The notes below the pieces were generated by a model. That model was not told the DNA's origin. It saw nothing but the letters and a program-made list of their open reading frames with translations, and did no database searches. A program made the position numbers and the translations under genes. DNA of 13,215 nt from Chloroflexota bacterium (lineage in GTDB: Bacteria; Chloroflexota; Dormibacteria; Dormibacterales; Dormibacteraceae), in assembly GCA_005880175.1 (NCBI GenBank), contig VBJR01000227.1:18187-31401 (forward strand), read 5' to 3'. This document shows positions 7,161 through 12,095 of the stretch, in pieces (the first letter of the stretch is position 1; each line of letters starts with the position of its first letter).

Positions 7161-8222
7161 TCAGCTCGGCGGTTCGCCCGCGCCCGCGCTCGTTTCGGTG
7201 GAAGCGCTCTCCCCAGGCGCCCGCCGCCAGGTCACGGCGTGGGCCGTCGCCCGCTTCTCGAGCCGGCCCTCCAGGCTGAGCGACTGCAGGTGCGCCAGGC
7301 CCTCCTGGAGCGCCATGCGCATCTCGTGCAGGTTCTCGCGCACGCCCCAGATCGCCGTCGCCACCTGCCACCCGTCGAGCTCGCCCCCGCCGATCACGGC
7401 GACCATCTGCTCCTTGCGCCGGCGGTGGTGGGCCTCGAGCTCCGCCGCCCGGCCCGCGGCGTCGCGGAACGGCCGGCCGTGGGCCGGCAGGACCAGCGAC
7501 GGCGCCAGGCCGACCAGCCGGCGCAGCCCGGCCAGGTAGTCGTCCAGCGGGTTGGGCGTGCTCTGCGGGTGGAGGCCGATGTTCGGGCTCGCGCTGGGCA
7601 GCAGCTGGTCGCCCGCGTACAGGACCCGGGACTCGGCGTCGAACAGGCAGACGTGGCCGGGCGAATGGCCGGGCGTCCACTCGACGCGCAGCCGGCGCCG
7701 GCCCAGCTCGAGCACCTCGGTGCCGTCGAGCTGGAGCACCGGCAGGGCCGGCTTGACGAACTGCCGGAAGCCGCGGGAGGCGTTCTTGAGGAAGTCCGCC
7801 TCGGCGTCGGGCACCCCGTGCATCTGGAGGTACCGGCCCACCTCCTCGACCAGCTGCTCGATCTCCAGGTACCGCGGGTGCACCATCGGCACCTCGAGCC
7901 GGTGGAGGTACAGGTCGGCCCCGTAGCGCTGGGTCATCTCGCCGGCGCCGCCGTAGTGGTCGGGGTGGATGTGCGTGACCAGCAGCCGGCGCAGGCGGGC
8001 GCGCGGGCCGGCCAGCTCGCGCAGGGCCGCGGCGATCAGGCCGAACGACTCCTGCGAGCTCATGCCGCAGTCGATCATGTCCACTTGGTCGCCGTCCGGC
8101 AGGAGGAAGCAGTTGACGTGCGTGTCCTCCCACGGGATCGGCAGGCGCAGCTCGAAGACGCCCGGCGCGACCTGCGTCAGCTCGGGTTCCGGGTGCGCCG
8201 CCTGGGGTTCGGAGTCAGCCAT
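7161..8222 (-). CDS. MBL-fold metallo-hydrolase, LACTB2/glyoxalase-II-like
   Basis: A 353-residue metallo-beta-lactamase-fold hydrolase, probably with two metal ions. The motif THIHPDH gives His84, His86, Asp88 and His89; TPGHSPGH gives His186; YAGDQ gives Asp205; PAHG gives His248. The region after about residue 260 is helical and basic (HHRRRKEQM), followed by a segment resembling the winged-helix tail of the LACTB2-like group; the last 15 residues are Ser/Gly/Glu rich. Members hydrolyse thioesters, phosphodiesters or RNA, and the substrate here cannot be read from sequence. No signal peptide is seen, so it should be cytoplasmic. The start is ATG 8222; it lacks a spaced Shine-Dalgarno and an AT-rich -10-like site lies only 7 to 10 bp upstream, so a leaderless mRNA is possible. 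Divergent from the SCP2 gene. Confidence 0.9.
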   Translation of the reverse strand: MADSEPQAAHPEPELTQVAPGVFELRLPIPWEDTHVNCFLLPDGDQVDMIDCGMSSQESFGLIAAALRELAGPRARLRRLLVTHIHPDHYGGAGEMTQRYGADLYLHRLEVPMVHPRYLEIEQLVEEVGRYLQMHGVPDAEADFLKNASRGFRQFVKPALPVLQLDGTEVLELGRRRLRVEWTPGHSPGHVCLFDAESRVLYAGDQLLPSASPNIGLHPQSTPNPLDDYLAGLRRLVGLAPSLVLPAHGRPFRDAAGRAAELEAHHRRRKEQMVAVIGGGELDGWQVATAIWGVRENLHEMRMALQEGLAHLQSLSLEGRLEKRATAHAVTWRRAPGESASTETSAGAGEPPS

Positions 8223-8876: not shown

Positions 8877-9263
8877 ATGACGGATAAGGACCAAGAGCGA
8901 ATCGTCAGGCTCGAGGCCAACCGCGCCGCCCTGGTGAGGTTGGCGAGCCAGTTCCAGGAGGAGGCTGGACTCAACAAGTCGATCATGGAGACGATGGGTG
9001 GCGTGCTCACCAGGGACTACGAGGACACGGACTTCGCGCAGGTCATGAGCGACCGCGAGGTCAACGACCGGCTGGTCCAGCTGCTCTCGGAGAACCGCGA
9101 GCAGGTCGAGCGCGCGCTCAGCCGCCTCGCCGAAGGCAAGTACGGCGAGTGCGAAGACTGCGGCAACAGGATCCCGACCGAGCGTCTCCGCTTCCGTCCG
9201 GAAGCGACGCGATGCGTGGACTGTCAGAGCCGCTGGGACCGCCTCAACCGGAGGTCCGCCTAG
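8877..9263 (+). CDS. TraR/DksA-type zinc-finger regulator
   Basis: A 128-residue protein of the DksA/TraR family, which enters the RNA polymerase secondary channel and changes promoter open-complex stability. The C-terminal C4 zinc finger has Cys92, Cys95, Cys113 and Cys116 with the typical spacing and the GECEDCGNRIPTERL sequence. The first 85 residues are predicted as a helical hairpin; the acidic tip segment is DYEDTD (48-53), containing a D-x-x-D pattern like the catalytic tip of DksA. ATG 8877 is chosen; GGAGG ends 11 nt upstream, slightly far. In-frame GTG/TTG codons at 8865 and 8868 overlap or touch that site and are unlikely. The frame stays open to 8727 but that part is intergenic. 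No intrinsic terminator with a T-run follows; a hairpin-rich region does. Confidence 0.9.
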   Translation: MTDKDQERIVRLEANRAALVRLASQFQEEAGLNKSIMETMGGVLTRDYEDTDFAQVMSDREVNDRLVQLLSENREQVERALSRLAEGKYGECEDCGNRIPTERLRFRPEATRCVDCQSRWDRLNRRSA

Positions 9264-9273
9264 GTACCCCGTC

Positions 9274-9298
9274 GCCGCGCCTCTCCCCCATGCGCGGC
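9274..9298 (+). repeat. GC-rich hairpin just downstream of the DksA-like gene
   Basis: GCCGCGC (9274-9280) and GCGCGGC (9292-9298) pair around an 11-nt pyrimidine-rich loop, starting 11 bp after the DksA-like stop codon. There is no T-tract, so it may be an mRNA-stabilising hairpin or an unconventional terminator. Confidence 0.5.
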
Positions 9299-9368
9299 AA
9301 CGCCGGAACGAGCTCTCTCCCCCCACCCAATGAGGCCTACCCGAAAAGGAGGCCGACGAGCTCCCCAA

Positions 9369-9404
9369 CCTCGGGGGGCACCCGAATATAGGGTCCCCCC
9401 GAGG
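9369..9404. repeat. Long GC hairpin in the gene-free stretch
   Basis: CCTCGGGGGG (9369-9378) pairs with CCCCCCGAGG (9395-9404); inside, ACCC (9380-9383) pairs with GGGT (9391-9394), leaving C9379 bulged and the 7-nt AT-rich loop GAATATA. It has 14 base pairs in all. No T-run follows on either strand. It lies 50 bp before the large fold-back element and is not part of its symmetry. Confidence 0.7.
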
Positions 9405-9453
9405 AGCCGGCTGAGAAGCCCTCCCGCCCCTCGTGGATGACGCACGTCTGCCT

Positions 9454-9759
9454 CTGGGCGGCGGGGACCGCTCACCCTTGACGTCGGCCCCACGCCCTGG
9501 TGAGCGGGTTCAACGAACGGGGCCTCCGGTGGGCTAGCACTGTGCCACCTCTGGGTGGCAACTATGCAACGGCTGGTCCTTGCCGTACCTTCGCCACCCC
9601 TCGACCGGGCTGAGGGGTGGCAGACGAACGGCAAGGCACTGTCGTGAACCATATGCCACCCAGACGCGGTCCGATGGTAGCCCGGCGGAGCTTCCTTTCG
9701 GTGTCGCGCTCACCAGGGCGTGGCGCCGGCGCCGGGAGTGGGCGGTCCCCGCCGCCCAG
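9454..9759. repeat. 306-nt fold-back element (giant imperfect palindrome)
   Basis: Two arms of about 148 nt fold around a 9-nt loop (9603-9611). Perfectly paired blocks from outside in: 9454-9471/9742-9759 (18 bp), 9490-9506/9707-9723 (17), 9524-9527/9687-9690 (4), 9531-9536/9678-9683 (6), 9550-9560/9654-9664 (11), 9578-9586/9628-9636 (9), 9593-9602/9612-9621 (10). Intervening segments are nearly equal in length on both sides (18/18, 17/16, 3/3, 13/13, 17/17, 6/6) and are themselves partly paired. By hand the arms match at about three quarters of positions. The element occupies the convergent gap between the DksA-like gene and the aldehyde dehydrogenase, ending 23 bp from the latter's stop. 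No protein-coding frame is convincing here. It may be a structured RNA, a palindromic repeat element or an inverted duplication. Confidence 0.8.
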
Positions 9760-9782
9760 CCCCAGCTCCGGGCCCTCACGCG

Positions 9783-11213
9783 TCAGACCTGGCCGTACAC
9801 GACCGACTTCTGCTCGGTGTACTGGTGGAACGCCTCGAGGCCGTGCTCCTTGCCGAAGCCCGACTCCTTGGTGCCCCCGAACGGCAGCTCGTCGTGGGCG
9901 ATCTGGAGCGCGTTCACCCACGTGTAGCCGGCCTCCAGCTCCTGCACCGCCCGGTGCGCCGCCTTCATGTTCGCCGTCCAGATCGACGAGCCCAGGCCGA
10001 ACACCGACCGGTTGGCCAGCTCCAGGCCCTCGTCCAGGTCCCTGATCCGCCGCACCGGCAGCGCCGGACCGAACACTTCCTCGGTCCACATCCGGGCGTC
10101 GTCCGGCACGTCGGCCAGGATCGTGGGATTGATGAAGTGGCCATTCGCGTAGCCGTCGCCCTCAGGCCGGCCGCCGCCGAACACCACCGTGGCGCCCCGG
10201 TCGAGCGCGTCCTGCACCTGGGCCTCCACCTCGGCCCGCTGGGTCGCCGTGTGCATCGGGCCCATCCGGCTGTCGCGGTCCATGCCGTTGCCCGGCTTCA
10301 ACCGCCTGGCGCGCGCCACCAGCTTCTCCAGCAGCGCCTCGTAGACGCCGTCCTGGACGTACAGCCGCTTGATCGCCAGGCAGGCCTGGCCGCAGTTGAA
10401 GAACCGCCCCGTCGAGATCGCCTTGGCCGCCTCGTCCAGGTCCGCGTCCTCGAGCACGATGCAGGGGTCCGAGCCGCCCAGCTCCAGCACCACCTTCTTG
10501 AGGAACGGCGCCGCCGCCGCCATCACCTTCTTGCCCGTCGGCGTCGAGCCAGTCAGCGCCACCTTGCGGATCATCGGGTGGGTGACGATCGCCTCGCCCG
10601 TGCCCTGCCCGAGCACCACGTTCACGACGCCCTCGGGCAGGCCGCCCTCGATCAGCGCCTCGATGCAGCGCAGCGTCGACAGCGGGGTTGTCGATGATGG
10701 CTTGAGCACGACCGCGTTGCCGGCCGCGATCGCCGGCGCGACCTTGTTGGCGGCCAGCGTCAGCGGGAAGTTCCAGGGCACGATCGCGCCCGTCACGCCG
10801 ATCGGCCGGCGCAGGACCAGGCCGTACGTCGTGGTGTCCGGCAGCGAGACGTACTCGCCGTGGATCTTGTCGGCCAGGTCGGCGAACCACGCGATGTTCT
10901 CGCCGAAGCGCTGTGCCTCGATGCGCGACTCCAGGATCGTCTTGCCCTGCTCGGCGGTCAGGACGGGGGCGATCTCCTCGACCTTCGTCAGCATGTGGGC
11001 GGCCGCCTCGTGCAGGACCTGCGCCCGCTTGTTGGGCGGCAGCGCGGCCCACGCCCGCTGCGCCTTCGCGGCGGCCTCGGCGGCCCGAGCGACGTCCTCG
11101 GCGCCCCCGCTCGGGACCTCGTCCACCACCTCGCCGGTGGCCGGGTTCGTCACCTGGTACGTCTGGCCGGACGCGGCGCCGACGCGCTCGCCCTCGATGA
11201 TCATGGTCGCCAA
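9783..11213 (-). CDS. NAD(P)-dependent aldehyde dehydrogenase
   Basis: A 476-residue enzyme of the aldehyde dehydrogenase superfamily, oxidising an aldehyde to the acid with NAD(P). Catalytic Cys278 lies in FFNCGQACLA, general base Glu244 in VVLELGGSDP, Asn148 in PWNFPLTL and cofactor-binding Lys171 in VVLKPSSTTP; GSTPTGKKVM is the Rossmann loop and EEVFGPALPV the late conserved motif. The overall pattern is close to succinate-semialdehyde dehydrogenases and related class enzymes, but the true substrate cannot be assigned. The start is TTG 11213, supported by AAGGAGG (11229-11223) with a 9-nt gap; ATG 11204 would be 18 nt from that site. It is cytoplasmic, with no signal. It is transcribed divergently from an enoyl-CoA hydratase, suggesting joint use in acid or acyl-CoA breakdown. 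Confidence 0.95.
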   Translation of the reverse strand: MATMIIEGERVGAASGQTYQVTNPATGEVVDEVPSGGAEDVARAAEAAAKAQRAWAALPPNKRAQVLHEAAAHMLTKVEEIAPVLTAEQGKTILESRIEAQRFGENIAWFADLADKIHGEYVSLPDTTTYGLVLRRPIGVTGAIVPWNFPLTLAANKVAPAIAAGNAVVLKPSSTTPLSTLRCIEALIEGGLPEGVVNVVLGQGTGEAIVTHPMIRKVALTGSTPTGKKVMAAAAPFLKKVVLELGGSDPCIVLEDADLDEAAKAISTGRFFNCGQACLAIKRLYVQDGVYEALLEKLVARARRLKPGNGMDRDSRMGPMHTATQRAEVEAQVQDALDRGATVVFGGGRPEGDGYANGHFINPTILADVPDDARMWTEEVFGPALPVRRIRDLDEGLELANRSVFGLGSSIWTANMKAAHRAVQELEAGYTWVNALQIAHDELPFGGTKESGFGKEHGLEAFHQYTEQKSVVYGQV

Positions 11214-11234
11214 TTCGCGAACCCTCCTTGCCGG

Positions 11235-11245
11235 AGCACTGTGCT
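11235..11245. promoter_or_regulatory. Small palindrome in the ALDH leader
   Basis: AGCACTGTGCT is an 11-bp inverted repeat with a single central base, lying 21 bp before the ALDH start, between its ribosome site and the AT-rich core CATCATTATTCT (11269-11280) of the divergent gap. It could be a regulator site. The AT-rich core offers TATTCT as a -10 toward the hydratase and AATAAT toward the ALDH; no strong -35 was seen on either strand. Confidence 0.3.
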
Positions 11246-11318
11246 TTCGGTCGCTTGTGCGGTACTCCCATCATTATTCTGGTTTCCCCAGCAACCACAC
11301 CCGGAGGGCATCCCCGCC

Positions 11319-12095
11319 ATGGCCGTACGACTCGAACGAGAGGGCGCCGTCGGGATCATCGTCCTGGACCGTCCGCCCGCCAACAGCTACGACTACGACT
11401 TCCTGCGCGAGCTCGGAGCCGCGGTGGACGATGCGCGATACGACGACGACGTCCGCGCCGTGGTCGTGGCCAGCGCGTCGGAGCGCTTCTTCTCGGCCGG
11501 GGCGGACGTCGTCGCCTTCCGGGCCGGCTCGCCGAACCAGCGTGCGATGACCGCGCTGCTGGCCCACGAGGTGTTCCGCAAGTTCGAGAACACGCCGATG
11601 CTGTTCGTCGCCGCGATCGCCGGTCACGCGCTGGGCGGCGGGCTGGAGCTGGCCCTGGCGTGCGACCTGCGGTTCGCGGCGAAGGGCGGCTACCGCATCG
11701 GGCTGCCCGAGGTCACCCTGGGCCTGTTCCCGGGCTCCGGCGGCACCCAGCGCCTGCCCCGCCTGGTCGGCCTGGCCAAGGGCCTGGACCTGATCGCGAC
11801 CGGCCGCCCCATCTCGCCCGAGGAGGCCCACGGGCTGGGCGTCGTGGACCAGCTGTTCGACGACGCGGCCGCCTGCCGGGCCGGCGCCGTCGAGTACTGC
11901 GCGAAGGCGGCCTCGGGCCCGGCCGAGGCGATCGGCCGGGCCAAGGTGGCCATCACGCTGGGCTACGCCGCGCCCCTGGACCTGGGCCTGGCGATCGAGC
12001 GCGAGGCCATCGCCAGGGTGTTCGTCTCAGAGGACGCCCAGGAGGGCATCGCGGCGTTCGGCGACAAGCGCCAGCCCAGCTTCAAAGGCCGCTAG
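11319..12095 (+). CDS. Enoyl-CoA hydratase/isomerase family (crotonase)
   Basis: A 258-residue crotonase-fold enzyme that most likely hydrates 2-enoyl-CoA in beta-oxidation-type pathways. Both catalytic acids of true hydratases are in place: Glu110 in [16 protein letters not shown] and Glu131 in [18 protein letters not shown]. The oxyanion hole is formed by SAGAD (59-63) and the GGG of AGHALGGG. The substrate loop [11 protein letters not shown] is more aromatic than the usual NAL-type sequence, which may point to an unusual acyl chain. ATG 11319 follows GGAGGG (11303-11308) with a 10-nt gap. It is divergent from the aldehyde dehydrogenase, and its TAG stop lies in a CTAG triplet repeat shared with the convergent lipoprotein gene. 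Isomerase or other crotonase chemistry cannot be excluded. Confidence 0.93.

Follow-up and report, generated by a model that had tools for sequence, protein, structure and literature searches.

Enterobacterial intergenic repeat units of 127 bp and 168 bp are described in one account (PMC2759123). A review discusses ERIC, Correia and the Coxiella MITEs as bacterial palindromic repeats or MITEs, and its passage on MITEs calls them typically AT-rich (PMC10969869). The locus studied here lies in a window of 13,215 nucleotides, that is, the whole stretch of DNA that was analysed, from a Chloroflexota bacterium of the Dormibacteraceae. Coordinates are window positions, and L and G numbers denote the loci and genomes of relatives used in the comparison. 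Positions 9454-9759 of the window (306 nt) form one imperfect palindrome, the pairing extends to 9448-9765 (318 nt), and there is a single apical loop. The palindrome shares with MITEs the terminal inverted repeats (53-nt arms, 87% complementary) and the short, non-coding nature (306-318 nt, five frames without a Pfam domain at threshold). We tentatively regard it as a MITE-like non-autonomous fold-back insertion, presumed to have been mobile, a reading to which we give somewhat less than an even chance.

Structure and setting of the palindrome

The features of the locus are as follows.

8877..9263, plus strand: gene of a DksA/TraR-type zinc-finger protein, left neighbour
9369..9404, plus strand: hairpin of 14 bp, distinct from the palindrome and located between it and the DksA-like gene
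9448..9606, plus strand: whole left arm, taking in CTG/CAG pairing outside the 306-nt ends
9454..9506, plus strand: outer left arm from the inverted-repeat search, 53 nt, 87% complementary to 9707-9759
9454-9471, 9490-9506, 9550-9560, 9578-9586 and 9593-9602, plus strand: perfect blocks of the left arm
9593..9621, no strand assigned: apical hairpin GCCACCCCTC...GAGGGGTGGC
9607..9765, minus strand: whole right arm, which matches the left arm when reverse-complemented (115/160 columns)
9707..9759, minus strand: outer right arm from the inverted-repeat search, partner of 9454-9506
9783..11213, minus strand: aldehyde dehydrogenase gene, right neighbour, convergent

According to the gapped alignment of the arms (9448-9606 against 9607-9765), 115 of the 160 columns are identical, indels are nearly absent, and the substitutions are many and scattered. 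The ten longest perfect runs between the arms are 18, 17, 11, 10, 9, 6, 5, 4, 4 and 3. The seven paired blocks read by eye in the first-pass annotation (18, 17, 4, 6, 11, 9 and 10) have the same lengths as runs in this list. The concentric centre placed there at about 9606.5-9607 agrees with the best two ungapped centres, 9607 (82/153 complementary) and 9606.5 (78/153), and the segment 9472-9489/9724-9741 contains seven mismatches, four of them G·T, as had been counted. The tally of about 11 G·T oppositions is reproduced (11 found), whereas A·C oppositions number six by the gapped alignment against the claimed seven or so. The internal loops of the fold are mostly symmetric. The perfect blocks are clustered beyond the expectation for uniform decay (p = 0.006), and no other feature hints as clearly at selection or a mosaic origin.

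The inverted-repeat score of the palindrome is 208, whereas 40 first-order Markov resamplings of the window gave a mean of 60.2 (sd 4.4, maximum 71). Folding of 9444-9769 gave minimum free energy z values of -14.15 on the plus strand and -12.01 on the minus strand, and none of 100 shuffles equalled it on either strand. Folded as single-stranded DNA, the palindrome has a z value of -12.07. The ungapped palindrome count is crude, because other places in the window reach up to 74 (mean 45.9, sd 7.5), and the case therefore rests on the local and gapped scoring. Among the single-hairpin candidates listed from 1,341,871 bases of relatives the best score was 88, and in 351,946 bases of G089, another genome of the class, it was 86; these scans took in the first 15 candidates at each locus and listed those of up to 500 nt with more than 0.6 of the fold in one hairpin. 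The fold-back at 9454-9759 is real. The earlier judgement that chance could not produce it is borne out, and the comparison of both strands with shuffled sequence, which had been proposed as a check, favours both strands strongly.

The palindrome stands in a convergent gap of 519 nt, flanked as annotated by 8877-9263 on the plus strand and 9783-11213 on the minus strand, and ends 23 nt from the stop codon of the aldehyde dehydrogenase gene. There is no sign that the palindrome derives from coding sequence or a tRNA. Five reading frames through it contain no Pfam domain at threshold (one gives a PRCH match at E 0.11, whose 13 bits fall short of the cut-off of 27), a protein search with its chance reading frame gave one candidate and none at E <= 0.01, and no tRNA was found in the window. 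A compact GC hairpin also follows the DksA-like gene of L002 (about 10390-10417), with a sequence different from that of 9369-9404 in the window; the hairpin after this gene is a possible terminator.

The same gap and further copies in relatives

DksA-like proteins with 85, 80, 78 and 70% identity were found at L001, L003, L002 and L004, respectively, and at no other loci. The records are titled Bacillota (L001), unidentified (L003), Candidatus Dormibacteraeota (L002) and Chloroflexi (L004). The genome of L001, G001, is classed with the Dormibacteraeota genome G002, and its Bacillota title is probably wrong. Both neighbours of the palindrome are kept in L002 and L004. The gap measures 175 nt from the end of one gene match to that of the other (about 159 nt between stop codons) in L002, and 26 nt (about 15 nt) in L004. 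The fold-back is absent from the corresponding gap of both these relatives. The window gap with the element removed aligns with the L002 gap no better than shuffled sequence does (170 of 300 shuffles were as good), so that the exact empty site is undefined. The only candidate for a target-site duplication is GCCTC/GCCCC, a 4/5 match within GC-rich flanks. At L001 and L003, homologues of parts of the 12.2-13.2 kb region of the window follow the DksA-like gene instead, and thus the dehydrogenase block is not there. The region 9783-12095 of the window (aldehyde dehydrogenase and the next gene) is a variable gene block, the edge of which adjoins the fold-back.

A homologous element in relatives, to be sought by searches with the arms, had been proposed as a check, and nothing convincing was obtained from four near genomes, 110 genomes of the class and 400 of the phylum. 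The DNA search matched the window element in none of the four near genomes and in no plasmid or phage. In the class, 27 of the 110 genomes gave matches at E <= 0.01 over stretches of 20-57 nt (best 1e-4). Thirty of the 32 places listed yielded loci (L005-L034), none of which has a fold-back scoring 70 or more. The phylum sample gave 0/400 genomes at 1e-5, with two candidates scored per genome among the rows listed. The arm profile R1 matched four of the 110 class genomes at E 0.003-0.009 and none of the 400 at 0.001; the four class loci hold nothing comparable, the best score (68) being that of a widely interrupted repeat. A pattern of the conserved blocks, allowing up to two mismatches, occurred in four class genomes of 110 against three for the reversed control pattern. 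Three exact patterns gave 1, 13 and 0 stretches in viral contigs, and the 14 loci contain nothing like the window element (best score 56). From these searches there appears to be no convincing second copy among the relatives' genomes, phages and plasmids. Empty homology searches are weak evidence, and no genome with a known match served as a control. In the literature, no such element is described for this bacterial group among the top matches listed, and no paper among those searched combines Dormibacter, intergenic and inverted repeat.

Two fold-back families of the class

The scan of relatives for hairpins revealed a multi-copy fold-back, family A, first met at L047:10697-10881 (about 185 nt). 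It is present in 54 of the 110 class genomes by DNA search and in 67 by a covariance model (both at E <= 1e-4). In two class genomes, all 29 scored candidates reach the threshold, giving at least 29 copies listed. Among the four near genomes it occurs in G002, where six further copies are listed at 96-97% identity, and in G004, with no match in either G001 or G003, the genomes that carry the two closest DksA-like genes. Of six G002 copies whose borders were read, five are flanked, outside GCCCGG-like ends, by equal 3-mers (TAA three times, TAG and TTA), and the sixth by unequal ones. The 3-mers look like a target duplication, and the borders resemble the YTAR target of IS5-type transposons. 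Of the loci L075-L104 (30), two were omitted, L097 for want of a clean element and L099 as a composite; L075 stands in the alignment as the same place in L047. The resulting alignment A2 has 28 rows (27 distinct copies), and A3 consists of 20 of these rows. In A2, both sides have changed in 33 of 51 pairs, and the covariation score is 0.410; shuffles score 0.153, and sliding yields no more than 0.117. The outer stems differ strongly between lineages (L077, L079, L084, L090 and others), and yet they remain complementary while the core they enclose is conserved; either an exchange of ends between cores or homogenisation of the arms may account for this. With a home-made gene caller, the flanking genes are tandem in 22 of 28 cases, divergent in five and convergent in one, and in 22 of 28 a called gene boundary is no more than 15 nt from the element.

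The type copy of family B is L002:12083-12281 (199 nt), with the ends TAGTGTCC...GGACACTA in the copies of L002 and G002. This L002 copy sits a short distance upstream of the aldehyde dehydrogenase gene that corresponds to the right neighbour in the window. Further loci are L183-L202, L221 and L222, and the family is present in 41 of the 110 class genomes. In alignment A4, which consists of eight chosen copies, both sides have changed in 19 of 65 pairs, and the net covariation term of RNAalifold is slightly unfavourable (+0.23). Among the 18 rows whose coordinates are valid, 12 place it between tandem genes, by the same gene caller; L189, L192 and L196 (3 of 21 rows) were omitted for wrong end coordinates. 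An apical GAGCGCA...TGCGTGA hairpin is common to both families in most rows, and the family A model gives a match at E 8e-5 to one family B copy and only weak matches to others. In family A, all 27 distinct copies fold better on the consensus strand, and G-U cells number 127 against 17 A-C cells; in family B, 8 of 8 copies likewise fold better on that strand. These counts are inflated because the structure was chosen on the counted strand. Rfam 15 has no family over either element at E <= 1 (12 loci for A, eight for B). G004 contains further near-perfect hairpins at L177:4415-4519 (105 nt) and L178:3628-3694 (67 nt), outside the assignment to families A and B.

The window element resembles both families in being a long, imperfect, non-coding hairpin from the same bacterial class (Dormibacterota), and in the case of family B the L002 copy lies beside the same dehydrogenase gene. 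Membership in family A was considered and rejected. The core covariance model of family A gives the window element 11.6 bits (E 0.34), which is at background level and lower than the 12.7 bits of a site within a gene of the window (7655-7703). Family A differs in its length, its conserved core, its strand bias and its apical hairpin, which the window element lacks. In a blastn search of the window element against the loci (including L002 with its family B copy, and excluding L001), no L002 match was among the best 20 listed, and the ends differ from those of family B by inspection. Family B is also shorter, has a side hairpin near the 5' end, and shows no visible sequence similarity. Families A and B are new to Rfam 15 for the loci tested, and were not met in the literature searched.

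Origin and affinities of the palindrome

Three observations point to an insertion: the fold-back itself, the lack of any fold-back between the same neighbours in two relatives, and the frequency of fold-backs in this class, as seen in the multi-copy families A and B. On this reading, the 306-318 nt palindrome would have arrived in the convergent gap once the lineage had separated from the relatives sampled, with a transposase supplied in trans doing the moving, and its point mismatches would have arisen later. Mobility, help in trans and age are what we infer rather than observe. Against the insertion, no convincing second copy was found in relatives, phages or plasmids, and there is no clean target duplication. 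Families A and B are mostly between tandem genes and are not homologous to the window element, G001 and G003 gave no family A match, and the perfect blocks are over-clustered. Among the options that the first-pass annotation had offered, a palindromic mobile element stays the likeliest, while its mild preference for a plus-strand RNA finds no support.

A local inverted duplication is a rather unlikely alternative, in which template switching would have copied about 159 nt of intergenic DNA inversely beside itself, and the product decayed without ever being mobile. It explains the lone copy, as far as seen in the relatives' genomes searched, and the missing target duplication as well as an insertion does, and arms with scattered substitutions and nearly no indels also fit it. 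It does not explain the clustering of the match blocks beyond random placement. Moreover, long near-perfect palindromes are unstable in bacteria, and thus a duplicated palindrome would need to have survived a perfect stage.

Selection on a long helix with internal loops, in a structured RNA that is its own gene or a 3'-UTR module, is improbable. The very stable fold, the mostly symmetric loops and the perfect-pairing blocks would suit such an RNA, and families A and B from the same class show strand-biased pairing and both-sided pair changes. The plus-strand preference was drawn from the excess of G·T oppositions. The plus strand folds 10.8 kcal/mol better (dMFE -10.8), whereas a null in which every mismatch was flipped at random between the arms (300 randomisations) has a mean of -1.4 and an sd of 14.2, so that the advantage corresponds only to p = 0.42. 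A search for sigma-70-like promoters gave no match in 9200-9900, and no homologue was found. The earlier statement that no known RNA family is recognisable agrees with Rfam, where no family reaches threshold. The MIR918 microRNA precursor (RF04104), which like the window element is a long single hairpin, gives 63.6 bits over 9473-9740, far below its curated gathering threshold of 268 bits, and was rejected as a generic long-hairpin match.

A transcription barrier or terminator that acts in both directions and serves the two convergent genes, which the position in the convergent gap close to the dehydrogenase stop codon would suit, is very unlikely, as the search for intrinsic terminators found no T-run terminator-like site on either strand in 9200-9900 (0 sites), the DksA-like gene is already followed by its own hairpin, and L002 and L004 manage with far shorter gaps. 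Both the RNA role and the barrier role lack positive evidence. Co-transcription of the palindrome with either gene would give the mRNA a 3' end folded into a very stable hairpin.

Taken alone, the window element is an unclassified long palindrome of putative function. The main value of the analysis lies in the two multi-copy hairpin families that it brought to light in this uncultured class of bacteria, family A showing strong compensatory change. The two families make it testable whether the long hairpins of Dormibacterota are transposon passengers, RNAs or both. It is conceivable, if unlikely, that the window element represents a third such family, longer than A and B and so far seen in this one member, among structured hairpin cassettes that are mobile and spreading. 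In that event, Dormibacterota would host a whole guild of unrelated-looking mobile hairpin elements, and at least two families among them would retain a pairing bias like that of an RNA or a single strand.

Like the bacterial MITEs and palindromic repeats, the window element is short, non-coding intergenic DNA without a transposase of its own, and its transcript would form a stable stem-loop. It differs from them in being GC-rich and, at 306 nt, palindromic over its full length, and in having no demonstrated second copy or target duplication. The length and the full-length palindromy are unusual for such elements.
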